Of a stretch of 56,340 nt of DNA, positions 1 through 44,080 are shown in pieces. A program made the translations under genes and the position numbers. Source of the stretch: a virus. The stretch spans positions 1-56,340 of the IMG/VR virus record IMGVR_UViG_3300024343_000772; one strand, given 5' to 3'. How positions within the stretch are numbered: the first letter of the stretch is position 1; each line of letters opens with the position of its first letter. The notes under the pieces are model-generated. The model saw only the letters and a program-made list of their open reading frames with translations, had not been told where the DNA came from and did no database searches.

Positions 1-1236
1 CATTAAGTTATTCCAAAATAGATCTGTTAAAAAGAAACCGTATAATATAGGAAATGTATCCCACTTTCTTATAAAATAACCCAAAACAGATAGTGCTAGT
101 AATGATATTAATAACCATTCTTTTACTGGGTAAATATGCAAACTCATTATAGAAATGAATACAACTATTAACGTTGTAATTATATGTTTGTGTTGTTTTA
201 TATATTTGGCTATAATACCTAACTGATTAAAACAAACCCAAGATAGAAATAAACATATGACAAGAATAAGAGGAATATAATAAAGTATATCCTTAAATAT
301 GTGTAACGTTTCAATATCAAATGTAAATCCTCTCGATAATACCAAATAATATATCAAAACTTCACTACTTACAATAGGAATTCCTAATATTATTAATGGC
401 AGTAACGAGCTTAATGCTCCACTGTTATTTGCAGATTCAGCCGCAGCAATCTTGTTGATATCTGTCTTAACTACGTTAGCGCTTAAATAACCACCTAATA
501 TGTTTGTTACTCCTGGAATTAATCCTGCCCAAAAACCAATGAATGCTCCTATTATAGTAGAAGGCACGGTTTTAATATCATAACCAAACTTAGATATTTT
601 ATTATTATCTTTAAATTCTTTATCTTTAAATTTCAGTATTTCTGGTATGATATACAAACCAATCATTACAGAACTAAAGGGTATTCCCAAAGTTAAGTAA
701 TCAATACCAAAAGTTCCCCATGTTTCATAAGATATATTATCAAAACCTATCTTTGCGAGCACACCACCAAATACGAAAAGAATAATAGATTTCCATTTAG
801 CCTGCTCTGATAGAAATATTAAAAGAATGATTGCTATTGATATGACTACTACTTGTATTGTGCTATTATAGAATTTAAATAAGCCAAAGAAGTTTGACGC
901 AAAAGCCAAAAATAAACCTACAGCAAAGATAGATCCTATTGTGCTTGAGACAGCATTAGAGCTTACTGCGTAATGACCCTTTCCTTCTAGGAACAGTTTA
1001 TGCCCGTATCTTGCAGTTGTAACCGCAGCAGCGTCTCCTGGTATCCCGTATAGTATGCCAGTTACAGAATTGGTATAATTTGATGTGATGATTAACGCTA
1101 CATAAAAGATTAGAATATTAAACGGATCTAAAAACGCTAATAGAGGATAGAAAGTTGCGACAGCGAGAAATGCTCCTGCTCCTGGAATAATTCCAAATAT
1201 CACACCAGCAAATATGCCGAGTAAACACCAAATCAT
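1..1236 (-). CDS. tctA: TctA-like tripartite tricarboxylate transporter permease, partial (C-terminus outside window)
   Basis: The reading frame is open from an ATG at 1236 to the left window edge (412 codons); the family is usually about 500 residues, so roughly the last 90 are missing. TctA is the large membrane subunit of TTT carboxylate importers, which work with TctB and a periplasmic TctC. Both halves of the family's internal repeat are visible: an N-terminal GIIPGAGA segment followed by ITSNYTNSVTGILYGIPGD, and a second AGLIPGVTN segment followed by AAAESANNSGALSSLLP and LGIP. The rest is a series of hydrophobic helices. The start overlaps the stop of the upstream oxygenase gene (TAATG), so translation is probably coupled. 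No TctB or TctC is seen here, so it may use host partners. The substrate cannot be told from sequence. Confidence 0.82.
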   Translation of the reverse strand, partial: MIWCLLGIFAGVIFGIIPGAGAFLAVATFYPLLAFLDPFNILIFYVALIITSNYTNSVTGILYGIPGDAAAVTTARYGHKLFLEGKGHYAVSSNAVSSTIGSIFAVGLFLAFASNFFGLFKFYNSTIQVVVISIAIILLIFLSEQAKWKSIILFVFGGVLAKIGFDNISYETWGTFGIDYLTLGIPFSSVMIGLYIIPEILKFKDKEFKDNNKISKFGYDIKTVPSTIIGAFIGFWAGLIPGVTNILGGYLSANVVKTDINKIAAAESANNSGALSSLLPLIILGIPIVSSEVLIYYLVLSRGFTFDIETLHIFKDILYYIPLILVICLFLSWVCFNQLGIIAKYIKQHKHIITTLIVVFISIMSLHIYPVKEWLLISLLALSVLGYFIRKWDTFPILYGFFLTDLFWNNLM

Positions 1237-1880
1237 TAGCTACATATACCGTTATCTAACATATAATGAAATAAATCTTTATCCCAATGCAAGCATATTA
1301 CTATTATAATCATATCATCTTTAGTTGAAAATACGCAATGCCTTTTGTTTCCATTGAAATACCATAGTGATCCGTTATTGCATTTAACAATCTTATCATC
1401 GTATAACCATTTAAAATGATATTCGTTTACGTTCACAAAAGCTGTCAATCTTATTTCATCATAAGAAGAATCGTGTTTGTTGATATCGAAATGATCTGGA
1501 AAGAAACCTCCTCTATCCATTCTTAAAAAGTGGCAGCGCGTTATCCAACGTTCCCACGGCAATAATAATCTAGAAAGTTCTTCGCTTTGTGTCCACACTT
1601 TTGTTGGAACTACAATGTCTTGATTGTTTACTACGATTCCAGTTTCTTGTTCGTAGTTTTTTAAACTAGTTAAGTCAGGAATTCCGCTTAATCCACCGTC
1701 GATTGATGTAACACTGAGGCCCCATCTATTGTTCGGTTTATTGGGATTATATCGTTTCCAATCGTCTTTGAAAGGTTCTATTTCTTTCATAACTTTACGA
1801 GCATCAAAACCTTGGAATTCTTGCCAATCAGACATCATGCCTAATCGCGTTAATGCTTGAGCGTCTTCGTCCCACTTCAT
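1236..1880 (-). CDS. 2OG-Fe(II) oxygenase, Asp/Asn hydroxylase-like
   Basis: A 214-residue protein starting at the ATG at 1880, which has GAGG 8 nt upstream; an earlier in-frame ATG exists but lacks this site. The C-terminal half has the jelly-roll hydroxylase pattern: H130-x-D132 in PDHFD, a distal H181 in GNKRH, and an arginine in IRLTAFV. These are the expected iron and 2-oxoglutarate ligands. Such oxygenases are common in marine T4-like phages, usually with unknown substrates. It is the first gene of a two-gene minus-strand operon with the TctA-like permease and lies 31 nt downstream of a late box. Confidence 0.65.
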   Translation of the reverse strand: MKWDEDAQALTRLGMMSDWQEFQGFDARKVMKEIEPFKDDWKRYNPNKPNNRWGLSVTSIDGGLSGIPDLTSLKNYEQETGIVVNNQDIVVPTKVWTQSEELSRLLLPWERWITRCHFLRMDRGGFFPDHFDINKHDSSYDEIRLTAFVNVNEYHFKWLYDDKIVKCNNGSLWYFNGNKRHCVFSTKDDMIIIVICLHWDKDLFHYMLDNGICS

Positions 1881-1911
1881 AATAATAACCTCATATTTAA
1901 TAGTATAGAAG

Positions 1912-1919
1912 TATTTATA
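1912..1919 (-). promoter_or_regulatory. T4-type late promoter box
   Basis: TATAAATA on the minus strand, 31 nt upstream of the oxygenase start at 1880. This is the T4 late -10 consensus, read by the gp55/gp33 system. It suggests that the oxygenase-TctA operon is expressed late. Confidence 0.6.
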
Positions 1920-1925
1920 ATACGG

Positions 1926-1953
1926 TTGACATTTTTCTAAGTCACGGTATAAT
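1926..1953 (+). promoter_or_regulatory. Sigma70-type early promoter
   Basis: TTGACA (1926-1931), 16 nt spacer, TATAAT (1948-1953), with TTTTT directly after the -35 box as in other early promoters of this window. It faces the PiT-like permease at 2045 and is divergent from the late box at 1912. Confidence 0.7.
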
Positions 1954-2044
1954 AGTCTTATAGCTAAACAATAAATAGCTTCGTTATCAATAATGGTAAC
2001 TTTTGTGAGCGACGGGGTAAAGCCGTCAAACAAAGGAGAAATAT

Positions 2045-3010
2045 ATGGAACTACTCACAGTGTGGAGCCTTGTCGGCTTCCTGCTAGCTGCTTATGCGGT
2101 AATAGCGAATGATTCAGTACAGACTCTCGGTACATGGATGGCATCAAACAATGAGAGATTTAGTTATAAAACATTATGGGCTGCAGCATCTGCCGTCTTA
2201 TTAGCTACACTATGGTATGGTTGGAGCGTCAATGGTGGCGATATTAGTTATGGTCGTTTAAATAAGATTCCATGGCAAGAAGTACAATGGTATCATGCCG
2301 CGGCACCAGCAATATTAGTTGCATTAACTCGTATTGGTGTACCAGTATCAACATCATTTTTAGTTTTATCTGTATTCGCTTCAACGTTCGTGTTGGAAAA
2401 AATGCTAATGAAATCTATTATGGGTTATGGTGTAGCGGCTGCGTTTGCTTATCTTGTATGGTTTGCAATTCATAAGTATTTCGGTAGATGGTATGATGAA
2501 ACTCAGCCCGTAAGCGAAAGTAATAAGAACTATTGGCGCGTTGCTCAATGGGTTGCTACTGGTGGTTTATGGTACACTTGGTTATCACACGATATTGCTA
2601 ACATCGCAGTATTCTTACCAAGGCAAGTACCGGTAGACTTAATGATACTTATATCATTTGTATTTGTCGGTGGATTGTTCTTTATGTTTAGAGAACGGGG
2701 TGGTAAGATCCAGCAAATCGTATTAGAGAAACATAACACTCGATACGTACGATCGGCCACATTGATTGATTTATTCTATTGGTTGTGTCTATACTTCTTT
2801 AAAGAACTAAATGATATTCCTATGAGTACAACATGGGTTTTCGTTGGTTTACTTGCAGGTCGAGAACTTGCAATGGCTACATACTTTGGTAAAAAGAAAA
2901 CAAAATCAGTATTTCCATTAGTTGCTAAAGACTTTGGAAAAATGATGGTTGGTCTTGGTGCTTCAGTAGCATTAGTATTACTTATTCATACTGTGATTAA
3001 TCCAGTGTAA
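2045..3010 (+). CDS. PiT-like inorganic phosphate permease (divergent)
   Basis: A 321-residue, strongly hydrophobic protein with about eight to nine membrane segments and a good AAGGAG site. PiT (PHO4) permeases carry two inverted repeats with a GANDxANxxGT signature. Here an N-terminal IANDSVQTLGT (residues ~20-30) is followed by IGVPVSTSFLVLS (PiT: GxPVSTTHxxxG), and a second-half SHDIANIAVFLPR resembles the second signature. It is shorter than bacterial Pit (about 420-500 residues). If it is a transporter it would move phosphate, a common limit for marine phages. The distant match could also reflect a non-transporting relative. It has its own early promoter and a terminator-like hairpin behind it. 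Confidence 0.5.
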   Translation: MELLTVWSLVGFLLAAYAVIANDSVQTLGTWMASNNERFSYKTLWAAASAVLLATLWYGWSVNGGDISYGRLNKIPWQEVQWYHAAAPAILVALTRIGVPVSTSFLVLSVFASTFVLEKMLMKSIMGYGVAAAFAYLVWFAIHKYFGRWYDETQPVSESNKNYWRVAQWVATGGLWYTWLSHDIANIAVFLPRQVPVDLMILISFVFVGGLFFMFRERGGKIQQIVLEKHNTRYVRSATLIDLFYWLCLYFFKELNDIPMSTTWVFVGLLAGRELAMATYFGKKKTKSVFPLVAKDFGKMMVGLGASVALVLLIHTVINPV

Positions 3011-3033
3011 TATTTTTATCACATATTACTTTT

Positions 3034-3067
3034 AATGGGCCTCTTGTATTTACATTTGGCCCATTTT
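3034..3067 (+). terminator. Rho-independent terminator-like hairpin after the PiT-like gene
   Basis: AATGGGCC (3034-3041) pairs with GGCCCATT (3058-3065) over a 16-nt loop, followed by a short TTTT run. The stem overlaps the spacer and -35 region of the tmRNA promoter. Confidence 0.5.
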
Positions 3068-3077
3068 ACATTATATA
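3049..3077 (+). promoter_or_regulatory. Sigma70-type promoter of the tmRNA gene
   Basis: TTTACA (3049-3054), exact 17-nt spacer, TATATA (3072-3077). It would start RNA near 3084, just ahead of the tmRNA acceptor piece. Confidence 0.6.
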
Positions 3078-3083
3078 TACTTA

Positions 3084-3330
3084 GTGAACGTTGAAGTGAC
3101 GTGAATACGGATCGGACCGCGGGGCAGTACCGCGCATCTCCACCACAAGCGCATTATGTGTGTTTTTGATGGGGATGAACTAGGATCGACGGACGGGATA
3201 GCTAAGTGGAGTTCATCGGGTGATCGCGTATAGATCAATTAAACTAAATGCAAATGAAAATTTCGCACCATCTGGTTATGCTCTAGCAGCATAAACACAG
3301 GGGGTTGGCAACTTACCTAGCAACAGAAAA
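3084..3330 (+). ncRNA. ssrA: Circularly permuted two-piece tmRNA (ends approximate)
   Basis: The acceptor piece comes first. It has a T-arm stem CGCGG/CCGCG (3118-3122/3130-3134), the acceptor 3' strand CATCTCC (3135-3141) and an encoded ACCA (3142-3145). A 25-nt intervening segment (3146-3170) follows. The coding piece then opens with GGGGATG (3171-3177), which pairs with CATCTCC over 7 bp including the G3-U70 wobble that marks alanine tRNA identity. The tag frame runs from GCA at 3250 to TAA at 3292-3294 and encodes ANENFAPSGYALAA, with the ALAA end of ClpXP-type degradation tags. Permuted two-piece tmRNAs are typical of alphaproteobacteria and also occur in some cyanobacteria. tmRNA with SmpB rescues stalled ribosomes. 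The T loop (GGCAGTA) departs from the usual TTCRANY. The outer ends are estimated from the promoter and the loss of structure. Confidence 0.9.
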
Positions 3331-3371
3331 GTTCGCATACATACAAACTATTAGAAAAGGAAAGAAGTAGT

Positions 3372-4172
3372 ATGAATAAATTTTTAACAACAACAGCTTT
3401 AGTATTTTTAGGAACGTCAGCATTCGCAGAGGAAGCTGCTCCAGAAGCACCAGCGGCAGTCACACTCGGTGGATCAATCGAAACAGTAATCGCAGAAGGT
3501 GCAAACGATAAGTACGGCGCTACTACTTCGTTCGAACTTAATGGTAATCTTGCTAACGGCTTAGCAACAGGCTCAATGGATTTCGTAGTAGGTTCTTCAG
3601 ATGAACTTAAATTAGACGAATGGTCAATGGGCACAACAGTAGCAGGCATGGGTTTATCTTTCGGAGATCAAGGTAATGCATGGATCTCAACTGAAGCAGG
3701 TTCAACAATCGAAGAGCCAACTATGAATGAAAGCTTACAAATTTCAGGTTTAGGCGCAACAGTAGCTCTTGGATTTACAAGTGTATCTACAGACGTAACA
3801 GATATTTCTAATGTTCAAGCGACATACGGTATGGATCTTTCAATCCTCGAAATATCAACAGCTGGTGACTATAACATTGATTCACAAGACTGGGTAATTG
3901 CAGGTCGTGCAGATACAGCAGGAATGATTGACGGAGTTCGTTTAGGCGGTGCAATGTCTTACGGTTCAGCATCTGAAAATATTGGTTTTGAAGCAGACGC
4001 AACAGTAATGGGCGTAACTGCTTACTTATCTGGTGATCAAGACGATATGGCTCAGCATGTAGGTGGTTCATATACATACAATCTAAAAGGTTTAGATCTT
4101 GAAGGTGCAGTAGATTATGACATCGATGCAGAAGCATACACACCAAAAGCGACTTTAAGCTTTAACTTCTAA
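3372..4172 (+). CDS. Outer-membrane porin-like beta-barrel protein 1
   Basis: A 266-residue protein with a Sec signal peptide (MNKFLTTTALVFLGTSAFA, likely cut after AFA) and a low-complexity EEAAPEAPAA stretch. Alternating amphipathic strands rich in Gly, Ser and Thr follow. It ends in LSFNF, the terminal aromatic residue needed for BAM-dependent insertion. This is the general plan of small alphaproteobacterial porins (about 300 residues). It would sit in the host outer membrane. The gene follows the tmRNA with no clear promoter of its own and has an AAAGGAAAG site before the ATG. A strong terminator follows at 4227. Confidence 0.7.
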   Translation: MNKFLTTTALVFLGTSAFAEEAAPEAPAAVTLGGSIETVIAEGANDKYGATTSFELNGNLANGLATGSMDFVVGSSDELKLDEWSMGTTVAGMGLSFGDQGNAWISTEAGSTIEEPTMNESLQISGLGATVALGFTSVSTDVTDISNVQATYGMDLSILEISTAGDYNIDSQDWVIAGRADTAGMIDGVRLGGAMSYGSASENIGFEADATVMGVTAYLSGDQDDMAQHVGGSYTYNLKGLDLEGAVDYDIDAEAYTPKATLSFNF

Positions 4173-4226: not shown

Positions 4227-4250
4227 AAGGGAGCTTCGGCTCCCTTTTTT
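4227..4250 (+). terminator. Rho-independent terminator after porin 1
   Basis: AAGGGAGC (4227-4234), TTCG tetraloop, GCTCCC (4239-4244), then a six-T run (4245-4250). Confidence 0.92.
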
Positions 4251-4255
4251 GTTGT

Positions 4256-4263
4256 TATAAATA
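4256..4263 (+). promoter_or_regulatory. T4-type late promoter box for heme oxygenase
   Basis: TATAAATA 32 nt upstream of the heme oxygenase ATG and directly after a terminator. Heme oxygenase should therefore start a late transcript. Confidence 0.65.
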
Positions 4264-4841: not shown

Positions 4842-4870
4842 TTTACATATACGTAAAAATATGGTATTAT
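4842..4870 (+). promoter_or_regulatory. Sigma70-type promoter
   Basis: CGTTTACA (-35 TTTACA 4842-4847), 17-nt spacer, TATTAT (4865-4870), upstream of the small basic protein at 4901. It could drive pcyX separately from heme oxygenase. Confidence 0.7.
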
Positions 4871-5068: not shown

Positions 5069-5793
5069 TTTTCCATAGAAGGAAAAAAATAACGGTAGAT
5101 GCTTTTACAGATCAGGAAAATATTGCAAAATATCCAATAGAAAGATCTAATAAGCATTTACCGAGTTGGTTTACTGACATGAAAACCGTAATAAAAAAGA
5201 AAAGCACTCAAGGATTAGTAGGAAAAACTGCTACGTTTAAAATGTGTCAAGGCTTTCAAGATAATATTAATAATAGCTTTACTATTTCATTATGGGCAGA
5301 TTTGATGTTTAGAGTAGAAGTAGATGGAACGTTTTCATACCAATACCCAAATAAACTTTGCAACTTTGGAATGGAATCTCATAATAGTCCTGAAGCAACT
5401 CCAATGGGTGAATTTGCACCGCTTAAGCATTTAAAGATATTTTCGCCCTGGGTTTTAAGAGAAAAAACTGGTGTAAACTTCTATTGGTCTCAAGCTTTTT
5501 GGTCTTATGGCGCAGCTGCATCAGATATGCTTATTCCGCCTGGTGTCGTTAATTACAAATATCAGAATGGAACACATATTAATTTAATGATACAGGCTGG
5601 AAAACAATTAGATTTAGACGCAGGTCAACCTCTCGTTTATCTACATCCTTTAACTGAAAACAAAGTAGAAATCAAAACTCATGTAGTAGATACAAAAGAG
5701 TATGAAAAATTAAAGCATGCAACAGTCTATAACAAGTTTGTAGGCGGATATAAAACACATAAGAAGAACTCAAAATGCACCCACTCTGGATAA
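5065..5793 (+). CDS. Conserved phage protein of unknown function
   Basis: A 242-residue protein, soluble, with no signal peptide. It has many aromatic residues and a likely beta-sandwich (for example PPGVVNYKYQNGTHINLMI and VYLHPLTENKVEIKTH). It resembles hypothetical proteins of marine T4-like phages, and a link to the DUF6065 group is possible but not firm. It lies between heme oxygenase and the bilin reductase and overlaps both neighbours, so co-expression with them is likely. Confidence 0.7.
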   Translation: MIFHRRKKITVDAFTDQENIAKYPIERSNKHLPSWFTDMKTVIKKKSTQGLVGKTATFKMCQGFQDNINNSFTISLWADLMFRVEVDGTFSYQYPNKLCNFGMESHNSPEATPMGEFAPLKHLKIFSPWVLREKTGVNFYWSQAFWSYGAAASDMLIPPGVVNYKYQNGTHINLMIQAGKQLDLDAGQPLVYLHPLTENKVEIKTHVVDTKEYEKLKHATVYNKFVGGYKTHKKNSKCTHSG

Positions 5794-6458
5794 GACTAAA
5801 CGAATATGCTGATCATCTTACACAATGCTTTGATCAGCAATTTACTCGTTATAATAACGAAAAGTATACAGAAGATCTAAAATTTAAAGATTGGAAAGAT
5901 ACTTTTTGGAAATCCGAACAAGTAAGTAAAGTCCATCTTAAAACTATTGTACCTGATGATGGTAAAGGTTTATGGCTTATGCATATTAATATATTTCCAA
6001 GAGTAGGCATTGAACTGCCGATTTTGGGATTTGATATTGTAGCAGGACCTAAAAAAATTACAGGTTCGTTTATGGACTTTTCACCACTGCATGGTTATGA
6101 TCATGCTTATAATGATTATATGGCGAAAAAAGTTTACGGTATCGAATGGAATAAACCACGAGAACTACCCGAATGGGCTAAAGAAATTTTCTCTGATAAT
6201 ATGCTAGCTGTTGGCAATATTAGAGATGGCGAAGAACTAGACCAGTTTATGGCCATAACAAAAGATTTGGTTGATCATTACTTAACTAATCTTAAAGACA
6301 GTGCGTTTGTATCAAATCGTGATACAAAACCATTACTTAACAAATACTGCACAAATCAAAAGATGAACCCTCATCTTCATAGATCTATTTTAGCTATGGG
6401 TATTTCAGAGGAAGGAAAAAACCAATACGTCGACGACGTTCTATTTGAGGTAATTTAA
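5775..6458 (+). CDS. pcyX: Ferredoxin-dependent bilin reductase, PcyX-like
   Basis: A 227-residue protein that aligns with the PcyA/PebS/HY2 family along its length. The core GKGLWLMHINIFPR, LPILGFDIVAGP and RELPEWAKEIFS matches PcyA, and the C-terminus (YCTNQKMNPHLHRSILAMG, then VDDVLFEVI) fits the family end. By recalled PcyA numbering, His88 and Asp105 correspond to H70 and D87, while Glu76 aligns with K56. Loss of that Glu points away from a PcyA-type phycocyanobilin product. PcyX enzymes from uncultured marine phages are reported to make phycoerythrobilin from biliverdin. It would need a ferredoxin, and none is encoded here. Confidence 0.82.
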   Translation: MHPLWIRLNEYADHLTQCFDQQFTRYNNEKYTEDLKFKDWKDTFWKSEQVSKVHLKTIVPDDGKGLWLMHINIFPRVGIELPILGFDIVAGPKKITGSFMDFSPLHGYDHAYNDYMAKKVYGIEWNKPRELPEWAKEIFSDNMLAVGNIRDGEELDQFMAITKDLVDHYLTNLKDSAFVSNRDTKPLLNKYCTNQKMNPHLHRSILAMGISEEGKNQYVDDVLFEVI

Positions 6459-6818
6459 ATGGAAAAAGGGTTTACAATTAATGCATGTTGTAGTAGAGTA
6501 AACATAATATCTGAATCACAAACATTGACATTCGGCGAACACTTGTTCCTCGTGACTGTAGTTCATTGTTCTAATTGTGGTTCAATTAAAGCAACTACTA
6601 ATATTAAGGAACACAAAATGGCAGGCGATACTATAATAGTAGAAAAAGCAGGAAAAACACTTAAGGCTGAATATTTTACAACAACAGATGGTTGTGGATG
6701 CAGATTTTTTATTAACGAAGAATTTATTCAAGAAGAATTATATCAAGGTAAATCTATTACATGGGCAGAAAGTGCTGCGAGTAATTGGTTGTCTGGGGTG
6801 AAAACATTAAATGGATAA
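6459..6818 (+). CDS. Unknown protein with CxxC pairs
   Basis: A 119-residue protein that starts one base after the bilin reductase stop. It has an early CC pair, a CSNCG pair near residue 40 and a CGC near residue 80, which could form a metal site. No family is recognised. The end overlaps the gp33 start. Confidence 0.6.
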   Translation: MEKGFTINACCSRVNIISESQTLTFGEHLFLVTVVHCSNCGSIKATTNIKEHKMAGDTIIVEKAGKTLKAEYFTTTDGCGCRFFINEEFIQEELYQGKSITWAESAASNWLSGVKTLNG

Positions 6819-7065
6819 TAAGGAAAAGGTTATAAATCCAAGAACTCCAGAAAAAGTACACCACGATATATCATATATGTTACAAACTGGCGTTAACTAT
6901 GTTGATGCTCTTGTTGAATATGCTCGTAAAAATGATTTAGAAATAGAGGCGGTTGCTGATATTGTTAAAAAGTCTTCGATCTTAAAAGAGAAAGTAAGAA
7001 ACGAAGCTGTTAAAATGAAAATGGTTATAAGAGAAGATGATAAAGACATCACAGAGCTTTGCTAA
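6811..7065 (+). CDS. 33: gp33-like late transcription coactivator
   Basis: An 84-residue protein. The pattern YVDALVEYARKNDLEIEAVA followed by a charged helix (LKEKVRNEAVKM) matches short gp33 proteins of marine T4-like phages. T4 gp33 bridges RNA polymerase with the gp45 clamp for late promoters. Position also supports it: T4 has the same order 33-59-32. Its presence agrees with the TATAAATA boxes in this window. Confidence 0.75.
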   Translation: MDNKEKVINPRTPEKVHHDISYMLQTGVNYVDALVEYARKNDLEIEAVADIVKKSSILKEKVRNEAVKMKMVIREDDKDITELC

Positions 7066-13537: not shown

Positions 13538-13966
13538 ATGAAAACACTTTATTTTTATTTAGCAGTCTTCGCCGCAGTATTTACAGTGAGCGCAGCAAAC
13601 GCAGACGTAACAATCGAAATGTTAAACAAGCGCGACGATGGCGCTAAGATGGTTTACTCACAAGATATTACACGTATCGAAGTGGGTGAGATTATCACAT
13701 GGATACCAACATCAAAAGGTCATAACGTAGAATTTATTGCAGGACCAGACGGATGGAAGTTGCCTAAGAAATCAAAATTAAATAAAGTAGTTGAGATGCA
13801 GTTCAATACACCTGGTGTATATTTGTATCAATGTTCACCACATAAAACAATGGGCATGATTGCTATTGTCGTTGTAGGTGATGGCGGAGATGGTTTATCT
13901 GTTCCAGGTAAAAAGATTAAAGGCAAGTCAAAGAAAAGACTTAAAGAAATAATGGCTGACCTATGA
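13538..13966 (+). CDS. Pseudoazurin-like type 1 copper protein
   Basis: A 142-residue protein with a Sec signal peptide (cut likely after ANA, residue ~22). The cupredoxin copper site is complete: H62 in KGHNVEF, C99 and H102 in YQCSPHKTMGM, and M107, with the pseudoazurin spacing of C+3 and C+8. TPGVYLYQC matches the strand before the ligand loop. Pseudoazurins shuttle electrons in the periplasm to reductases or oxidases. The basic C-terminal tail (KKIKGKSKKRLKE) is an addition after the usual end. It lies in the same run of small genes as the AtpE homologue. Confidence 0.85.
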   Translation: MKTLYFYLAVFAAVFTVSAANADVTIEMLNKRDDGAKMVYSQDITRIEVGEIITWIPTSKGHNVEFIAGPDGWKLPKKSKLNKVVEMQFNTPGVYLYQCSPHKTMGMIAIVVVGDGGDGLSVPGKKIKGKSKKRLKEIMADL

Positions 13967-25225: not shown

Positions 25226-25309
25226 GAATAGCAGTTATGCTATAAAAAAGTCTATTTTGTTGAACCAACCAGCCCAATATTCATAAATATAGATATATCA
25301 TTTCTAGTG

Positions 25310-25377: not shown

Positions 25378-25872
25378 TTGTCAAAAGAACAAACTAATTG
25401 GGAAACAGATATACGCCTAATACAAAGTGATATCAAACAAATCCAAAAGTTCTTTAACAAGGTTGAATCATCAATGGAACTTATGGTCGACCTTAGTAAA
25501 AACGTTGCTGTCCAGTCAGAAGTAATCGCTTTTACAAAAGAAAAGTTAGAAGAAATTGAACGTACGGTTGACGAAACTAGACGTAATGAAGATTTACGTT
25601 TACAAGTATTGAGCGATAGGTTAGAAGAATACAGACGATCGTCTCGTGGAGACCATGAAAAACTTGCGCAGCACAACGCTGAAAAACGAGCTATGAGTAA
25701 TAAAGAAATACTTGAAAAGCTTGAAGTAATGGAACGTGGTTTGCATTCTCGTATCAACGATCAGAATAAAAAAGTTAATGCCCTAGAAAATTGGAAATAC
25801 TATATGATGGGTATTGGCGGGGTAATCGTTCTTCTTGTCGCGCGAATTAATTGGCCATATCTTTTTAATTAA
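25378..25872 (+). CDS. Coiled-coil protein with C-terminal membrane helix (holin-region candidate)
   Basis: A 164-residue protein that appears to use TTG (25378) with AAAGGA upstream; no suitable ATG exists near the N-terminus. Residues 1-135 are a charged coiled coil and residues ~140-160 a single membrane helix (MMGIGGVIVLLVARINW). The layout recalls XhlA/DUF7201-type proteins beside phage lysis genes. A holin-like role is possible. Confidence 0.6.
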   Translation: MSKEQTNWETDIRLIQSDIKQIQKFFNKVESSMELMVDLSKNVAVQSEVIAFTKEKLEEIERTVDETRRNEDLRLQVLSDRLEEYRRSSRGDHEKLAQHNAEKRAMSNKEILEKLEVMERGLHSRINDQNKKVNALENWKYYMMGIGGVIVLLVARINWPYLFN

Positions 25873-25876
25873 GTTG

Positions 25877-25905
25877 TGTACATCTGACAGATTCCGGCGT
25901 ATAAT
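25877..25905 (+). promoter_or_regulatory. Sigma70-type promoter before the primase
   Basis: TGTACA (25877-25882), 17-nt spacer, TATAAT (25900-25905), 33 nt before the gp61 start. Confidence 0.6.
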
Positions 25906-25937: not shown

Positions 25938-26948
25938 ATGGTAGATTTTGTAGACATACAATATGCTCAAATGCTTTCTGGTCGTCTAGATCAGTTTAAG
26001 ATAAAACATACTAATCCGTATAAAATCAACTTTCGTTGTCCTATCTGTGGTGACTCTCAAAAGTCACGCTCAAAGGCACGCGCTTGGTTGTTAGAACGAG
26101 ACAACAAATTCTCATTCTATTGTCATAATTGTAATGCTTCTCAAGGATTTTCATATTTCCTTAAAGGCCAAGATATGCAATTATACAATGATTACGTAGC
26201 TGATAAGTTTGTAGGTAAAGCTAATAATACTATTAAGGATACCAAACAAGACGATGATAAGTTTAAGACTAAGGCTCCTGTTTTTAACAAAACAAATCCT
26301 CTTGCCAAAATTAAAAAGGTAAGTCAGCTTAACCATGATCATCCTATAAAGCGTTATATCAATCAACGTAAAATTCCACCATCACATCATTACCGTTTAT
26401 ATTTTGCGCGTAAGTTTAAAACATGGATTAATGAAATTATTCCTGGTAAGTTTCAAAGTGTAAAGCACGACGAACCTCGTTTAATCATTCCGTTTCTAGA
26501 CGAACGCGGTAATTGTTTTGGTGTCTCAGCGCGTGGATTTGATCCTGAAGGTATCAGATATATAACTATAATGTTTGAAGATAGACCAAAGATATTTGGT
26601 TTAGATAAAGTAGATCAAACCCAAATATATTATATTGTAGAAGGCGCTATTGACAGTTTCTTCTTATCAAATGCAATATCTATGAATGGTGCTGAAGGTA
26701 ATAGTAATTCTGCTAACGATAACGCTGTATATGTCTTTGATGCAGAGCCTAGAAATAAAGAGATATGCAATCGCATGGAGAAGGTTATTAAGAACGGCCA
26801 TAAAGTTTGTATTTGGCCATCTGATATAGATGGTAAAGATATAAACGAAATGTTTCTAGCAGGATTAAATCCTGAAAGAATAATAGAAGAAAATACGTAC
26901 TATGGTTTAACAGCCGAATTAAAATTAGCCGCATGGCGCAAAACTTGA
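25938..26948 (+). CDS. 61: gp61 DNA primase
   Basis: A 336-residue protein. The N-terminal zinc finger is CPICGD and YCHNCN (residues ~35-65), with QKSRSKARAWLL between. A TOPRIM-type core follows (YIVEGAIDSFFLSNA, and AVYVFDAEPRNKE). It makes lagging-strand primers with gp41. It is followed 10 nt later by thyX. Confidence 0.92.
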   Translation: MVDFVDIQYAQMLSGRLDQFKIKHTNPYKINFRCPICGDSQKSRSKARAWLLERDNKFSFYCHNCNASQGFSYFLKGQDMQLYNDYVADKFVGKANNTIKDTKQDDDKFKTKAPVFNKTNPLAKIKKVSQLNHDHPIKRYINQRKIPPSHHYRLYFARKFKTWINEIIPGKFQSVKHDEPRLIIPFLDERGNCFGVSARGFDPEGIRYITIMFEDRPKIFGLDKVDQTQIYYIVEGAIDSFFLSNAISMNGAEGNSNSANDNAVYVFDAEPRNKEICNRMEKVIKNGHKVCIWPSDIDGKDINEMFLAGLNPERIIEENTYYGLTAELKLAAWRKT

Positions 26949-26958
26949 AGGATTAAAA

Positions 26959-27630
26959 ATGAAAGCTAGACTAATCGCATATTCACAACCATCCAAAGAT
27001 GAAATCATTGGTTTGGACGACGTACAAGATTTAATCGCGTACTGCGCAAGAGTATCAAACCCATCGAACCAATTAAACCAAGAAACAGCTCCTAAGCTAT
27101 TGTCATATCTTGCTAAACATGCTCATTGGTCACCGTTTGAAATGGCTAATGCTACTATGGAAATTGAAACAACCCGTGATATCGCTCGCCAAATGTTACG
27201 TCATCGTTCATTTGCATTCCAAGAGTTTAGCCAACGCTATGCTGATATCCGTGACCTAGATAGTAAAATGGTTGTTCGTAAAGCTAGATTACAAGATCCA
27301 AAAAATCGGCAAAACAGCGTTATGACTGACGATGTATCTCTGCATATGGCTTGGGAAGTTCATCAACGAAATGTTTGGAACGAAGCAATGAAATCATATG
27401 CGTGGGCTATTGAAAATGGTATCGCAAAAGAACAGGCTCGTGCTATTTTACCTGAAGGTAATACACCAAGTCGTTTATATATGCAAGGTTCTATTCGTTC
27501 GTGGATCCATTATATTGAACTACGTTCGTCTAATGGAACACAACAAGAACATATGGAAATTGCTATTGCTTGTGCCGAAGCCATCACAAAAATATTCCCA
27601 AGCATCGGCGCTTTTATTCAAAAAGATTGA
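26959..27630 (+). CDS. thyX: Flavin-dependent thymidylate synthase ThyX
   Basis: A 223-residue protein that makes dTMP from dUMP with FAD and methylene-THF. The signature RHRxxSxxxxSxR is present as RHRSFAFQEFSQR (81-93), with Ala at the first Ser position. HWSPFEMANATMEI and TPSRLYMQGSIRSWIHYIELR complete the active site. It lies upstream of the ribonucleotide reductase genes. Confidence 0.95.
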   Translation: MKARLIAYSQPSKDEIIGLDDVQDLIAYCARVSNPSNQLNQETAPKLLSYLAKHAHWSPFEMANATMEIETTRDIARQMLRHRSFAFQEFSQRYADIRDLDSKMVVRKARLQDPKNRQNSVMTDDVSLHMAWEVHQRNVWNEAMKSYAWAIENGIAKEQARAILPEGNTPSRLYMQGSIRSWIHYIELRSSNGTQQEHMEIAIACAEAITKIFPSIGAFIQKD

Positions 27631-27746
27631 CATATTACCACATATGTGGTACCGTAGTTGATAAATACACCTACCAATTGATAGACTCATTGGTAGAATT
27701 CCAAATAAAAGTAGTAAACGTTGCATAGTTTTGTGATGCGTACTAC
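27627..27746 (+). promoter_or_regulatory. Structured regulatory region ahead of nrdB
   Basis: TTGACA (27627-27632) overlaps the thyX stop; at 17 nt the -10 would be TACCGT (27650), which is poor. Between them lies a perfect 16-bp palindrome TACCACATATGTGGTA (27636-27651). Two hairpins follow: CTACCAAT (27671-27678) with ATTGGTAG (27689-27696), and GTAGTA (27711-27716) with TACTAC (27741-27746), the latter enclosing GCAT/ATGC. Together they suggest an operator plus a folded leader. Confidence 0.6.
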
Positions 27747-27773: not shown

Positions 27774-29069
27774 ATGATGTTAGAGAATACGCAACCAATT
27801 TCAAATGTAATAGAACTATTAAGACCGGTTAATTATGTAACAAAACGTGACGGAACTACAAAAGATTTCGATAAAGACAAGATTACAGCAGCCGTAGAAA
27901 AAGCTATGAAAGGTATTGGAATTAGAAGTAAAAACTTATCAAGTGAGATTACTTCTGAAGTCGTAGAAACTATCAATCTAGAATCAAATGATGTTATTGT
28001 AAATGTTGATACTATCCATAAAACAGTAGAGAATGTTATAATGGATATGGGTTTACACGATTTAGCTCGTGAGTATATCCTATTTCGTTTTAACAACAAA
28101 CCAGACATCTTTCGTAAGCGCACAAGCTTAAAGCCATACGAGTATCCTCAACTAGTAGAATATACTGACGCTATTCGTCATTCATATTGGGTACACACTG
28201 AGTTTAATTATTCAGCTGATATTCAAGACATGAAGGTCCGTATGAAACCAGAAGAAGTCGAAATCGTAAAGAAAGCCATGTTGGCTATCTCTCAAATTGA
28301 AGTTGCAGTTAAAACTTTCTGGGCTAAAATTGGCGATAGATTTCCTAAACCTGAAATCGCGGCAGTTGGTATTACATTTGGCGAATCAGAAGTTCGTCAT
28401 GCCGATGCATATTCAAACTTAATCGAAATTATGGGTCTTAATGAAGAGTTTGAAAAAGTAGTAGAAGTACCTGCGATGAAAAAGCGTATTGCTTATTTAG
28501 AGCAATCAATTGGTTCTCCTGCAGATGATAAAGACTATTTCCACAAAATCATTCTATTCTCTATGTTTGTTGAAAACGTATCTTTATTCTCTCAGTTCTT
28601 AATTATGATGGCTTTCAATAAACACAAGAATGTTCTTAAAGGTATTTCAAATGCAGTTGAAGCAACATCAAAAGAAGAAGATATCCACGCTCGTTTCGGA
28701 TTTGAGCTTGTAAATATTATCCGTGAAGAAAACCCTGAATGGTTCGATAAAGATAGTAACAATGAAGTTAATCGTCTTTGCCGTGATGCGTTCAAAGCCG
28801 AGTCTGCAATCGTTGATTGGATTTATGCCGAGCATGATTTAGACTTTTTACCCAAAGCAACAGTGAAAGAATTCCTTAAGCATCGCTTTAATCAATCGTT
28901 AAAAGCTATTGATATGAAGCCTTTGTACGAGGTTGATGAAGAAGCAATTGCAAGTACTGAATGGTTCGTAGAAGAAATCCTAAGTACCAAAAATGTTGAT
29001 TTCTTTGTCAAGCGTTCGACCGCTTATTCTAAGAAGACAAAGGCATTCACTGAAGACGATTTATTTTAA
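27774..29069 (+). CDS. nrdB: Ribonucleotide reductase beta subunit NrdB with N-terminal ATP-cone
   Basis: A 431-residue protein. Residues ~18-105 form an ATP-cone (VTKRDGTTKDFDKDKITAAV, and GLHDLAREYILFRF), a regulatory domain usually on NrdA. The R2 body follows with metal ligands in ESEVRHADAY (E, H and the radical Tyr at +7), MFVENVSLFSQF and KEEDIHARFG. ATP-cones fused to NrdB are known from a few class I enzymes, where dATP drives inhibitory oligomers. Start is at 27774 or the next codon, also ATG. Confidence 0.93.
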   Translation: MMLENTQPISNVIELLRPVNYVTKRDGTTKDFDKDKITAAVEKAMKGIGIRSKNLSSEITSEVVETINLESNDVIVNVDTIHKTVENVIMDMGLHDLAREYILFRFNNKPDIFRKRTSLKPYEYPQLVEYTDAIRHSYWVHTEFNYSADIQDMKVRMKPEEVEIVKKAMLAISQIEVAVKTFWAKIGDRFPKPEIAAVGITFGESEVRHADAYSNLIEIMGLNEEFEKVVEVPAMKKRIAYLEQSIGSPADDKDYFHKIILFSMFVENVSLFSQFLIMMAFNKHKNVLKGISNAVEATSKEEDIHARFGFELVNIIREENPEWFDKDSNNEVNRLCRDAFKAESAIVDWIYAEHDLDFLPKATVKEFLKHRFNQSLKAIDMKPLYEVDEEAIASTEWFVEEILSTKNVDFFVKRSTAYSKKTKAFTEDDLF

Positions 29070-29080
29070 GGAAGTATATT

Positions 29081-30778
29081 ATGAGAAAATACAAAAAATT
29101 CTATTGGCTAAATGATGACTCCAAGACATTTTTGTCGCGCGGTTATCTAGAAGAAAAAGAAAAGCCGCAAGACCGTATCCGTTTCATTGCTGATAAAGCT
29201 GAATGGTACCTTAAGGATATGGCAAAAACAAAAGCAGGTAAAGCTTCTTATGACGGCTTTTCTGATAAATTTTATGACTACATGAGTCGTGGTTTTTATT
29301 CCCTAGCATCCCCTATTTGGGCAAACTATGGTAAAGAACGTGGGTTGCCAGTATCATGTTTTGGATCGTACATCGATGATAGCATGTCAGCAATCTTATT
29401 CGGCCATGCAGAAAATGGCATGTTGATGAAAAATGGTGGTGGTACATCAGGTTATTTTGGCGCAATCAGACACCGTGGAGCTCCTATCCGAGACTCAGGT
29501 GAATCTTCAGGTTCTGTGCACTTCATGCAGATGTACGATACTTTGGCTTCAGTCGTATCACAAGGTTCAGTACGTCGTGGTTTCTTTGCTGCATATCAAG
29601 ACATTGAACACCCAGACGCTGACGAGTTTCTAGACATTGGCACAGAAGGTAATCCTATTCAAGGGTTAACAACTGGCATCAATGTTAGTAACAAATTCAT
29701 TGATGAAATGAAAGCTGGAGATCCAGACAAACGTCGTCTATGGGCGAAGGTACTACAACGTCGTTCTGAAATTGGTTTCCCTTATATTCTATTTTCAGAT
29801 AACGTAAACGATGGTCGTCCACAAGTATATAAAGATAAGGATATGAGAGTACACGCTTCAAATATGTGTGCTGAAATCGCATTACCATCTTCACATGAGG
29901 AAACGTTTACATGCGTATTGTCTTCTCTTAATGTTTTACATTGGGATGAAATCAAAGAAACAGATGCGATTGAAACATTGACTATGTTCCTTGATACGGT
30001 ATGCGAAGAGTTTGTTCGTAAAACAGCTGGTCAAATCTATATGAAACGTGCTCGTGATTTTGCTCTGAAACACCGTGCACTTGGTGCTGGTATTTTAGGA
30101 TGGCATTCACATCTACAGTCTAAGATGATTTCCTTTGAGTCAAAAGAAGCTGCTCAACTAAATCTTGAAATTGCTAAAACAATGCAAGAACGTTCGTATG
30201 AAGCGTCTCGTCAAATGGCTAAAACATTAGGTGAACCAGAATTACTTGAAGGTTATGGAATGCGTAATACCACAACAATGGCTATTGCTCCTACTAAATC
30301 ATCGAGTTTTATCCTTGGTCAAGTATCACAATCTATTGAGCCAGAATTCTCTAACGCTTATGTTAAAGATCTAGCGAAAATGAAAGTTACTATTCGCAAT
30401 CCATATTTAAAAGAATTGTTAATTAGTAAAGAACAAGATACGCCAGATGTATGGGAATCAATTAAAAACCGTGACGGATCTGTTCAGCATCTTGAGTTCT
30501 TAACTGAAGACGAACGTGCAGTATTTAAAACTTTCTCAGAGATTAGTCCAAATACTATTATTGACCAAGCTGCAATTCGTCAACAGTACGTTGATCAAAG
30601 TCAAAGCTTAAACTTAATGTTAGATCCAGATATGACTGTCAAAGATATTAATGCCCTATATTTGTACGCAAACGAGATGGGTGTTAAGAGTTTATATTAT
30701 GCTTATTCTATGTCAGCAGCACAATCTCTTACGAGGAAACGTGTTATGTCAGCAGATTGCGCAGCGTGTGAAGCATAA
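29081..30778 (+). CDS. nrdA: Ribonucleotide reductase alpha subunit NrdA, lacking the ATP-cone
   Basis: A 565-residue protein, short for NrdA (about 750). It starts directly in the catalytic body without the N-terminal ATP-cone. Active-site residues are visible: [20 protein letters not shown] with the radical Cys, FTCVLSSLN, and the YY pair in SLYYAYSM. The C-terminal thiol pair is CAAC, just before the end. It lies 11 nt after nrdB. Allosteric activity control must come from the NrdB cone. Confidence 0.95.
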
Positions 30779-30785
30779 AAATAAT

Positions 30786-31979
30786 ATGGAATATATGAAA
30801 TACTTTGAAAACACGATTGACGAATACAAATCAGACGGAAGATATAGAGTCTTTAACGATATATTGAGAGAGCGGGGGAATTTCCCTCGCTCAATCTGGT
30901 ATGGAAAATATGCTCCAAAGAATATAGTTAACTGGTGCTCAAATGATTATTTGGGCATGGGTCAAAATCAGTATGTTATTGATGCTATGCACACAGCTCT
31001 GGATCAAACCGGTGCTGGTTCTGGAGGAACAAGAAATATTGGTGGAACATCTCACTATCACGTAACACTTGAAAGAGAATTAGCATCTTTACATAAAACA
31101 GAGTCTTCATTACTTTTCTCTAGTGCTTATGTAGCAAATGAGTGGACTTTAATAGCCTTATCTAGAATCATACCAAATATCTGTTTTATATCAGATAACA
31201 AAAATCATGCTTCTTTAATCATGGGAATAAAACATTCTCGTAGTGAAAAAAGAGTATTTAAACATAACGATATGAACGATTTAGAAGCAACGTTAAAGAA
31301 AGTCGTTAAACAAAAATTAAATCCTGTAATCGTATTCGAGTCCGTGTATAGTATGGACGGTGATATATCTCCTATCAAAGATATTGTTGCGTTGGCGCAT
31401 AAATATAACGCGTTAACTTATATTGATGAAGTTCACGCAGTAGGTTTATATGGTGAGACTGGTGGCGGATATTGTGAACAATTAAACATGTACTCTGACG
31501 ATATAGATATAATTAACGGAACGCTTGGTAAAGCTTTCGGTGTACAAGGAGGTTATATTGCAGCTAATAAAACGATTGTTGATGCTATTAGATCAGTCGC
31601 AAGCGGATTTATATTCACAACATCCATCTCACCTGTTTTGTGTGCTGGGGCTATCGCCTCTATAAATTACGTAAAAGATCACAAATCACTTAGAGAAAAA
31701 CATCAATCAAAAACTAAGCAGCTTAAGAAAATGCTTAGAAGAAGGAATATACCAGTGCATGAAAATGCATGTACTCATATTGTTCCTATAATGGTAAACG
31801 ACGCGTTTAAATGCAAAGAAGCAAGCGATCGGTTACTTAACGAATACGGCATATATATTCAAGCAATCAACTCACCAACTGTAGAAGCTGGAACAGAAAG
31901 ATTGCGCATTGCTCCGACTCCATTCCACACAGATAACATGATGATGGAGTTGGTATCAGCTCTAAGGGATGTATTATAA
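30786..31979 (+). CDS. hemA: 5-aminolevulinate synthase (Shemin pathway)
   Basis: A 397-residue protein that condenses glycine and succinyl-CoA to 5-aminolevulinate, the first step to heme in alphaproteobacteria. It is near full length. Family hallmarks: [47 protein letters not shown] and the PLP lysine K249 in NGTLGKAFG. The start is the ATG at 30786, 8 nt after nrdA; ATG 30795 is an alternative. It follows nrdB-nrdA, so it should be expressed with them. ALA synthase genes have been described in phage sequences from aquatic habitats, often together with bilin genes. Confidence 0.95.
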
Positions 31980-32452
31980 TGAATCAATTACAAGCCGCTT
32001 TCTTTAGCGGTCAAACACAGAAAGATAATAGTATGACTAAGATTAAAAAAGCCTTTTGGTTTGTATTAGGCATCCTCTTGGTAGGCGTAGCTTATTTAGG
32101 AGTATTACTACCTGGACTACCGTGGAGTACACCTATTTTAGGGGCGACGTTTTGTTTTGCCAAGTCCTCCGACCGTTTACACAACTGGATTATGAACCAC
32201 CCAAGGTTTGGTCCATTTGTTAAAAACTGGTCTAAACTAAGAGTTTACCCTCAAAAAGCAAAATATTTAATGGTTGCAGTAATGTCAACATCATTAGGAT
32301 TTATGTATTTTGGTACGGGAAATATAAAAGCAACATTGTATATGTTTATTATGTTTGCACTAATCGTTATTTGGGCATGGCGTTACCCAGGTAGTAAAGC
32401 GGAAGCAGAACGTCGTATTGAAGCCGGTGAAAAAATCGGTTGGTTAAAGTAA
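31979..32452 (+). CDS. DUF454 (YbaN-like) inner-membrane protein
   Basis: A 157-residue protein from the ATG that overlaps the hemA stop (TAATG); an ATG at 32033 would give the usual family start MTKIKKAFW. The DUF454 pattern is clear: LGVLLPGLPWSTPILGATFC then FAKSSDRLHNWIMNHPRFGP, with about three membrane helices. Function of the family is unsettled. Here it is tied by overlap to ALA synthase. Confidence 0.82.
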   Translation: MNQLQAAFFSGQTQKDNSMTKIKKAFWFVLGILLVGVAYLGVLLPGLPWSTPILGATFCFAKSSDRLHNWIMNHPRFGPFVKNWSKLRVYPQKAKYLMVAVMSTSLGFMYFGTGNIKATLYMFIMFALIVIWAWRYPGSKAEAERRIEAGEKIGWLK

Positions 32453-32466
32453 AGGATATGGTTAAC

Positions 32467-33411
32467 ATGAAACAAATATTAAGTGCGGTTTTAGCCACAA
32501 CTATAGCATCAGGTGCTATGGCAGGTGGACATGAACAACCCGAAGAAAAAAACGGACCGTTCGTTAACGGCACTTTTGAAATCTATATTGACGACACAAA
32601 TACTGAAGGAACAGTTGATACTCGTTTTGAGGCCATGGGTGGTTACGAAACAGACATCGATCATCCTTTAGCAAATTGGGCAGGTTTTGGAGCAAGGTTC
32701 GATACAAACTATGCTTTGAACAGATCTCTTGATAACACAATTACTGAAAAGCAAATGGGACTCGGTATCGGTAATAACGCAAGATTATACGTAGGTGAAA
32801 CAGATGCTCAGCGTTTAGGTTTTGCAAAAACATCTAAAATCGGTGCACCTGTTATTATTACAAAACCAAGTTCTCGTATTGATCATAACGAAAAAGTAGT
32901 TCTTACTTTTGGTGGTTGGGAAAACAACGACGAGTTTGAATTTAATACATATCGTTTAAAGCGTGATATGCCATATGGCGGCGTAGTTGGTTGGAATCCT
33001 GAAGACGATTCACTATATTACGGTGCAACTGCTCGAGTAAGTATTCTCGACGTTTCGTATATGGGCATTAAGAAAGATGATGAAACACAACATGGTTATT
33101 CGGTTGGCACATCATTCCATCGCATGGGAGTTCCAGTAGGTCTTGGCATTGAAAGATGGGAAGACGCTGAGAATACACGCATGGACTTTGGTGTAATGTA
33201 TAATTATAGTAAAGAAATAATGTTTACTGCGCATAGAGTTGCAGACGACGACTTAGGATTTACATATAACTATCTTGCAGCAATTCATACTAAAGGACCA
33301 GTTGAGTTAGGATTATATCTACATCAAGGAAAAGACCAAGTAAATCCTTGGACCGGTCAAAAATCAGAAATCGATGATAGCATTAAGGCTACAATCAAAT
33401 ATAAATTCTGA
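32467..33411 (+). CDS. Outer-membrane porin-like beta-barrel protein 2
   Basis: A 314-residue protein starting at the ATG at 32467 (GGA 10 nt upstream). It has a Sec signal peptide (MKQILSAVLATTIASGAMAG), then amphipathic beta strands with many aromatic residues (YYGATARVSILDVSYMGI, YNYLAAIHTKGPVELGLYLH), and ends in KATIKYKF with a terminal Phe. It is unlike porin 1 in sequence. It lies at the end of the nrd-hemA operon and is followed by a late box. Confidence 0.72.
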   Translation: MKQILSAVLATTIASGAMAGGHEQPEEKNGPFVNGTFEIYIDDTNTEGTVDTRFEAMGGYETDIDHPLANWAGFGARFDTNYALNRSLDNTITEKQMGLGIGNNARLYVGETDAQRLGFAKTSKIGAPVIITKPSSRIDHNEKVVLTFGGWENNDEFEFNTYRLKRDMPYGGVVGWNPEDDSLYYGATARVSILDVSYMGIKKDDETQHGYSVGTSFHRMGVPVGLGIERWEDAENTRMDFGVMYNYSKEIMFTAHRVADDDLGFTYNYLAAIHTKGPVELGLYLHQGKDQVNPWTGQKSEIDDSIKATIKYKF

Positions 33412-33412
33412 T

Positions 33413-33420
33413 TATAAATA
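33413..33420 (+). promoter_or_regulatory. T4-type late promoter box
   Basis: TATAAATA directly after the porin 2 stop, 71 nt upstream of the epimerase start at 33492. Confidence 0.6.
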
Positions 33421-43146: not shown

Positions 43147-43393
43147 AATCTACGGAACTCCAACTTGTGGCTTTTGTTTAAGAGCAAAGAAACTAGCAGA
43201 AAGACAAGGATTAACTTACGAATATTTCGACGTTACATATTCAAAATATAGAGATCAAATGAATGAAGCTTTAGGATCTAAAACTGCTGAAACTGTACCT
43301 CAGATTTGGTGGTATGATAAACACATTGGCGGTTATCAAGAGTTCTCAGAAGAAATAGATAATACGAGAACTTATGGAGATGGCGGGTTTTAA
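43139..43393 (+). CDS. nrdC: Glutaredoxin
   Basis: An 84-residue thioredoxin-fold protein with redox motif CGFC (residues 10-13), TVPQIW with the cis-Pro, and a GGYQEF segment for glutathione. It would reduce ribonucleotide reductase, whose genes are at 27.8-30.8 kb. Confidence 0.88.
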   Translation: MIKIYGTPTCGFCLRAKKLAERQGLTYEYFDVTYSKYRDQMNEALGSKTAETVPQIWWYDKHIGGYQEFSEEIDNTRTYGDGGF

Positions 43394-43396
43394 CCG

Positions 43397-43425
43397 TTTA
43401 CATGCATGCTCAAATAGCTTATACT
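43397..43425 (+). promoter_or_regulatory. Early promoter, GATTCTA family
   Basis: TTTACA (43397-43402), 17-nt spacer, TATACT (43420-43425), followed directly by GATTCTA. It drives the gene at 43456. Confidence 0.82.
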
Positions 43426-43455
43426 GATTCTAGAAACAAGGTATAGGACGAAAAA

Positions 43456-43746
43456 ATGAACGCTCAAAACTTCTGGATCAAAACTGAATTAACAAACGTT
43501 GAAGCATTAATCGTAGAGTATAACGAATGTGCAGAAAGTTGCATAGAAGATCTTAAAGATGTATATTTGAGCGACTCAGCTGACTACCAGGCAGCTTTAG
43601 AAATGTTCCGTATGTCAGATGCAGAAAAGCTCGCAGCTCATGTTTCTGACTTAGATACGTGCTCACGTGACAATCTGGTAGTAGCATTTCAGAAAGATTG
43701 TGGTGACGAATTCGTTGAAGATATTCTTGGTTTTACTTTAAGATAA
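43456..43746 (+). CDS. Unknown early protein
   Basis: A 96-residue acidic protein with four Cys and no recognised family. It is a single gene with its own strong early promoter, as expected of a host-takeover factor. Confidence 0.7.
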   Translation: MNAQNFWIKTELTNVEALIVEYNECAESCIEDLKDVYLSDSADYQAALEMFRMSDAEKLAAHVSDLDTCSRDNLVVAFQKDCGDEFVEDILGFTLR

Positions 43747-43754
43747 ATTAGCTG

Positions 43755-43783
43755 TTTACAAGCCTGTTAAAAAGCCGTATACT
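43755..43783 (+). promoter_or_regulatory. Early promoter, GATTCTA family
   Basis: TTTACA (43755-43760), 17-nt spacer, TATACT (43778-43783), followed by GATTCTA. Confidence 0.82.
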
Positions 43784-43816
43784 GATTCTATAAGCTGAAA
43801 CAAAGAAAGAAATAAA

Positions 43817-44080
43817 ATGACACACACAATCACAAACTTAACTAACGGCGTAACTTATAAATCAGACATCGTTGCTTCATTTGAAAAAGCAATCGTTAGT
43901 GAAGAAAACCTTGAGCAAGGTTATGGTTCAACCGGCTTTTGGAACTATGTTTCAGCAGACATGCATATGGATCTTAGCACGTGGTACGCAGCAACATTGA
44001 TCGACGAAGCTTTCGATTACATGGTCGACTTGCATGATGAAGATCGTGCTGCTGAAATCAATATGTTGGAGTTTGTATAA
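43817..44080 (+). CDS. Unknown early protein
   Basis: An 87-residue acidic protein. No family recognised. First gene after the promoter at 43755; the stop overlaps the next start (TAATG). Confidence 0.7.
   Translation: MTHTITNLTNGVTYKSDIVASFEKAIVSEENLEQGYGSTGFWNYVSADMHMDLSTWYAATLIDEAFDYMVDLHDEDRAAEINMLEFV

Follow-up and report, generated by a model that had tools for sequence, protein, structure and literature searches.

The window analysed here, a 56,340-base IMG/VR virus record taken at its full length, is a fragment of a T4-like phage of the marine type: profile matches identify gp59, gp33, gp32, uvsX and gp41, as well as lysis genes. As the initial annotation had proposed, an intact gene for 5-aminolevulinate (ALA) synthase, hemA, lies at 30786-31979 within a ribonucleotide reductase operon (Table 1). 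It follows nrdA at a distance of 7 nt, since nrdA ends at 30778 (a spacing of 8 nt had been given), and its stop codon overlaps the ATG of the next gene by one base. This next gene does encode a DUF454 membrane protein (PF04304), as claimed. The open reading frame that comes after it begins with a signal-peptide-like stretch, which fits an outer-membrane protein, while the name "porin" was a guess, and Pfam and PHROGs profile searches returned no family match for this frame. The putative primase owes its name to its position and a CxxC...CxxC motif; it has no Pfam match. An ATP-cone regulatory domain (PF03477) was found on NrdB (27774-29069, + strand) and none on NrdA. The genes for heme oxygenase (hemO) and a bilin reductase are located 25 kb upstream of hemA. 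Elsewhere the window carries, on the opposite strand (1-1230), a TctA-family subunit of a tripartite tricarboxylate transporter (PF01970, 203 bits) and, at 13538-13966 (+), a secreted copper protein of the plastocyanin/azurin type, pseudoazurin-like (PF00127, 51 bits); a gene for such a pseudoazurin-like protein is also found near hemA in the relatives L018, L043, L046 and L077.

Table 1. Genes, RNA and transcription signals of the window that bear on hemA and hemO
Feature	Position	Strand	Evidence or remark
Permuted (two-piece) tmRNA, alphaproteobacterial type	3040-3337	+	RF01849 109 bits; RF04321 109 bits
Terminator-like hairpin insulating the hemO unit	4227-4246	+	
Late box TATAAATA	4256-4263	+	40 nt before heme oxygenase
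hemO, heme oxygenase, 180 aa	4296-4838	+	PF01126 63.5 bits; PDB 5kzl 36 bits
Sigma-70-type promoter TTTACA-17-TATTAT	4842-4870	+	after hemO
Ferredoxin-dependent bilin reductase, PcyX/PcyA group	5775-6458	+	PF05996 68 bits
gp33-like late-transcription co-activator	6811-7065	+	phrog_254, E=1.1e-8
Degenerate late-type box CATAAATA	25282-25289	+	before the gene at 25378
Sigma-70-type promoter TGTACA-17-TATAAT	25877-25905	+	33 nt before the primase ATG
Putative DNA primase (gp61-like)	25938-26948	+	first gene of the unit ending in hemA
thyX, flavin-dependent thymidylate synthase	26959-27630	+	TIGR02170 147 bits
Late-type box GATAAATA (NATAAATA)	27660-27667	+	114 nt before nrdB
nrdB with N-terminal ATP-cone	27774-29069	+	PF00268 190 bits; PF03477 62.7 bits
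nrdA, class I ribonucleotide reductase large subunit, 565 aa	29081-30778	+	TIGR02510 757 bits; PF02867
hemA (valaS), ALA synthase, 397 aa	30786 (ATG)-31979 (end of stop)	+	TIGR01821
DUF454 membrane-protein gene	31979-32452	+	PF04304 96.8 bits
Outer-membrane/porin-like protein gene	32458-33411	+	signal-peptide-like start, composition
Late box TATAAATA	33413-33420	+	after the hemA unit, before an epimerase gene

The hemA product matches the ALA synthase model TIGR01821 over its full length (residues 1-396, 565 bits for a cut-off of 338.55), and its best relatives of solved structure are ALA synthases as well (PDB 7x98, 428 bits; R. capsulatus 2bwn, 390 bits), both alignments starting at residue 1. 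Alignment to 2bwn places the PLP-binding lysine at K249, in GTLGKAFG; this residue and the DEVHAVG motif (D214-H217) are invariant in 15 viral ALA synthase rows. That the protein is another alpha-oxoamine synthase (BioF, KBL or SPT) can be dismissed with near certainty: these enzymes belong to a common fold family and their models give weaker matches, but the scores all fall below the respective cut-offs, and the tree places the window protein beside alphaproteobacterial hemA. In the alignment to 2bwn, the heme-feedback residue His342 of the R. capsulatus enzyme is replaced by Lys and the counterpart of Cys400 is absent, as the window protein ends before that position; the enzyme may have lost feedback inhibition.

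In viral contigs, 448 stretches matching hemA were found, so that the gene is common in these viral data. The viral ALA synthases of the tree (51 rows) are set apart by a branch of SH-aLRT 100 and form a clade with a long stem beside alphaproteobacterial sequences. Linkage to nrd is confined to a single subclade (27 rows, support 99), in which L003 is among the exceptions, and exists in two versions: (primase)-thyX-nrdB-nrdA-hemA-DUF454, as in the window, and primase-thyX-nrdA-nrdB-hemA, where other genes precede DUF454. In other phages, the hemA-DUF454 pair sits in unrelated places. The gene behaves like movable cargo, since in L253, L254 and L273 other genes stand in its place between nrdA and DUF454. 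At about 10001-11191 in L003/L004, a hemA 81% identical to that of the window lies in an unrelated neighbourhood with a DUF932 gene upstream, a placement that suggests transfer between phage types. DUF454 follows hemA in most relatives; it was considered as a dedicated partner and rejected as such because it also occurs without adjoining hemA in L253, L254, L273 and L276-L290. The two genes were not seen side by side in 80 alphaproteobacterial loci, nor was hemA seen in the short bacterial DUF454 neighbourhoods examined. In L278, a large ribonucleotide reductase gene (433-3426), putatively B12-dependent, comes after thyX and is directly followed by DUF454, with no hemA there. Among phage isolate records, only distant relatives of the ALA synthase (<60% identity) were found, several of them annotated as BioF or KBL.

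Of 14 long records, 9 contain all three tetrapyrrole genes (hemA, hemO and the reductase gene), two hemA only, another two hemO and the reductase gene without hemA, and one none of the three; these counts are not those of a random sample, since the records entered partly via DUF454 and otherwise via hemA. In none of the 14 is hemA adjacent to hemO or the reductase gene, and in three it lies on the opposite strand.

The bilin reductase is closer to PcyX (PDB 5owg, 134 bits) than to PcyA (55 bits). At the position of PcyA Glu76 and PcyX Asp55, a Lys is found in the window enzyme and in every relative examined (L085-L161; 45 distinct sequences), while the positions of His88 and Asp105 of PcyA are kept. 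The Glu76/His88/Asp105 set of PcyA is therefore incomplete in the window reductase through this Lys, and the catalytic Asp55 of PcyX, present in 5owg and in Pelagibacter phage Mosig, is replaced too. PMC10151467 describes Glu76 as a residue of PcyA alone, lacking in PcyX and pre-PcyA. The group matches neither characterized active site.

Genes of the hemA kind are already known, as the initial annotation had noted. Wegner et al. described them in 2024 as valaS, found in complete or broken cassettes or as lone genes, and demonstrated ALA synthase activity and a broken cassette in phage CB_2, a relative (PMC11480375). The window is a "broken cassette" in this sense (hemO-pcyA/X ... valaS), with hemO and a PcyA/X-like reductase gene together and valaS elsewhere in the genome (PMC11480375). 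It shares with the published valaS an alphaproteobacterial-type phage ALA synthase of a separate viral clade that lacks the His342/Cys400 pair, heme-feedback residues that are missing from many, though not all, members (PMC11480375). Unlike in that description, hemA here stands immediately behind nrdA, and the window reductase carries a Lys where PcyX and PcyA have their acidic residues; nrd, DUF454 and promoter timing are not mentioned in the main text of PMC11480375. The Pelagibacter phage Mosig EXVC030M (MT647606) likewise has hemO and a bilin reductase gene as neighbours in a T4-like genome. However, its reductase is only 31% identical to that of the window, its hemO-pcyX pair precedes the neck genes instead of gp33-gp59-gp32, no TATAAATA occurs within 150 nt of its hemO, and no match to the window ALA synthase was found in it. 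A putative ferrochelatase is annotated in MT647606 at 43207-43977 (L162:2354-3124), about 2-3 kb from this pair.

The window bears two hallmarks of T4-type late transcription, with TATAAATA and NATAAATA boxes at conserved positions and a gp33 co-activator (phrog_254). On its + strand, TATAAATA occurs 12 times, for about 4-5 expected. A T- or A-type late box precedes gp32 in 41 of 42 distinct upstream regions, a figure which, like all such counts given here, does not represent independent events because the loci are of common ancestry. In S-PM2, the late motif has been given as NATAAATA, and the middle genes of RB49 and S-PM2 have been proposed to be served by an early promoter as well as a late one (PMC2984593). 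Cyanomyoviruses (S-PM2, Syn9) and RB49 thus resemble the window in the late motif and in a middle mode that relies on overlapping early and late promoters (PMC2984593). In contrast to the cyanomyoviruses, the phage studied here is probably not cyanobacterial, as indicated by its ALA synthase type and its tmRNA, and timing is read from motifs alone. The host is probably an alphaproteobacterium, to judge from the tmRNA model and the ALA synthase type, both of which may have been acquired. The tmRNA (tag ANENFAPSGYALAA) was also compared with a sample of 385 alphaproteobacterial genomes as a guide to the host; this approach was abandoned, since it yielded short matches of about 70-80% identity and no assignment.

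The promoter upstream of the primase gene is a conserved signal of the hemA unit. A sigma-70 site scoring at least 10/12 is present there in 22 of 22 distinct relatives, as against 8-10% of shuffles, a control that covers composition and not descent; the upstream regions of gp41 behave in the same way (24/24 at the same threshold). Since the primase promoter comes just after the genes for endolysin and spanin, which are late genes of lysis, a separate unit starts from it, and no credible terminator was found in the window from primase through thyX and nrd to hemA. Directly before hemA, sigma-70 sites occur in 4% of distinct regions, which is the shuffle level. A late box directly before hemA was considered as a rule and discarded as well, being present within 300 nt in none of 24 nrd-linked loci and in 4 of 29 others. 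Late boxes before primase or thyX were found in at most one distinct upstream region. They do occur before nrdB: a NATAAATA box lies 95-123 nt upstream, gene starts in relatives being taken from tblastn or longest ORFs, in all 11 distinct regions that precede an nrdB of the window type, the window itself being counted through L001. The window has GATAAATA as this box, and L007, L347, L348 and L350 have an exact TATAAATA. Four of the 11 regions also possess a TTGACA-17-TATAGT or TTGACA-17-TATTAT site that starts 33 nt further upstream of the box. The window carries degenerate forms of both nrdB motifs (the GATAAATA box, and a TTGACA with a poor -10), and hemA may therefore rely on 4.9 kb of read-through from the primase promoter. 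Further upstream, a [TAG]ATAAATA motif is kept about 60 nt before the gene at 25378 in 18 of 23 distinct relatives.

The signals around hemO are of another kind. The late box announced at 4256 is indeed there (TATAAATA) and is conserved, since a T- or A-type box (TATAAATA or AATAAATA) precedes hemO in 34 of the 40 distinct regions compared, mostly at 33-47 nt, and in many relatives a hairpin similar to that of the window stands before it. Sigma-70 sites before hemO are at the shuffle level (about 1 in 40 distinct regions, 3%). We infer that the 4256 box is used as a promoter. Downstream of hemO, a sigma-70 promoter scoring at least 10/12 is found in 34 of 38 distinct relatives, often as TTGACA-17-TATAAT, and the genes for the bilin reductase, gp33 and gp59 are placed behind it; a late box before the reductase gene was seen in at most one distinct upstream region. 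The gp33 protein is needed before late transcription can start. The class of the hemO promoter changes between lineages. G001 and G002, two relatives whose nrdB shares 85-89% identity with the window gene, lack a late box immediately upstream of hemO and have a sigma-70 promoter there that scores a perfect 12/12. G002 also carries AATAAATA 53 nt upstream of hemA, which is the opposite of the order in the window.

What do these signals say about timing? The initial annotation had proposed a two-step plan, in which hemA is expressed early and the tetrapyrrole is degraded or converted later. One half of this idea holds at the level of promoter motifs: promoter classes do differ between hemA and hemO, and the difference is kept in the lineage. 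The other half, hemA as an early and not a late gene, does not agree with the box before nrdB, which makes it probable that the nrdB-nrdA-hemA operon is also transcribed late. Within the lineage, the signals of hemA look early-plus-late and those of hemO late-only; the conserved promoters suggest that hemA is switched on before hemO, and hemA would not be switched off late. A reading in which late boxes near nrd simply erase the split was revised in light of the sigma-70 map. Since the combination of early and late promoters fits the S-PM2/RB49 scheme, nrd-hemA would count as a middle unit, and hemO as late. The "convert later" part fares worse, because the reductase has its own sigma-70 promoter, and an ordered pathway would hardly, on biochemical grounds, combine a reductase under an early promoter with an oxygenase under a late one. 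The reductase, at the end of the pathway, shares this early promoter with gp33 and gp59, so that the arrangement seems partly positional and not a metabolic plan. Nor is the plan general: given the other promoters of G001 and G002 and the opposite order in G002, the timing scheme would be lineage-specific at best.

We favour, at roughly 60% for the explanation as a whole, a valaS gene in a middle-mode nrd unit combined with a late-only hemO. According to this model, primase-thyX-nrdB-nrdA-hemA would form a transcription unit with hemA as its last enzyme gene, driven by the host sigma-70-type promoter before primase and, in relatives, additionally by the early/late tandem promoter before nrdB, which would correspond to the "middle" mode known from T4-like phages that lack MotA. 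ALA synthase would then be made alongside the dNTP enzymes and probably also late. In the late phase, the late-only hemO would cleave some of the heme, giving biliverdin and free iron, and the biliverdin would then be the substrate of the PcyX-like reductase. A more ambitious version has two clocks, with a feedback-resistant ALA synthase tied to nucleotide synthesis in the middle mode and a late-only hemO that converts part of the heme to bilin and iron as infection draws to a close, hemO having been rewired to an early promoter in some relatives; this we regard as tentative.

A rather unlikely alternative, though one to be taken seriously, is that there is no two-step plan at all. As a piece of cargo, hemA would be transcribed whenever nrd is, including late, hemO would be transcribed late too, both enzymes would work side by side late in infection, and the differing promoters would reflect nothing but landing sites. 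The invariable NATAAATA box before nrdB agrees with this view, as do the absence of hemA from the nrdA-DUF454 gap in L253, L254 and L273 and its presence elsewhere in other phages, the perfect promoter of hemO in G001 and G002 and the early promoter of the reductase. It accounts poorly for the hemO late box that the window's lineage keeps without sigma-70 sites, and for a hemA that keeps its position after nrd across most of a subclade with good support. Doubtful, too, is the idea that the two halves are unrelated, hemA serving respiratory heme during replication and late hemO plus reductase iron release or a late bilin, which would be compatible with either timing. Each half does occur alone, hemO with the reductase gene in G001 and G013, and hemA in G004 and the fragment G010. 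Besides, an alternative oxidase gene beside hemA in L050 (4833-5396; PF01786, 239 bits) and relatives would point to respiration. Against this stands the co-occurrence of the three genes in 9 of the 14 long records. The oxidase cluster (c70) is found near hemA in L027, L028, L029, L039, L054, L059 and L067 as well, and the relatives with the oxidase beside hemA have the order primase-thyX-nrdA-nrdB-hemA.

The discoverers of valaS called the purpose of heme-making and heme-breaking genes in phages "still enigmatic" (PMC11480375). To this question the promoter map would add a concrete order, with hemA middle, the reductase early and hemO late in the window's lineage, and hemO early in others. 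It ties hemA to DNA-precursor synthesis in one phage lineage, and may thus be relevant to how infection reshapes the use of heme and iron in aquatic alphaproteobacteria.
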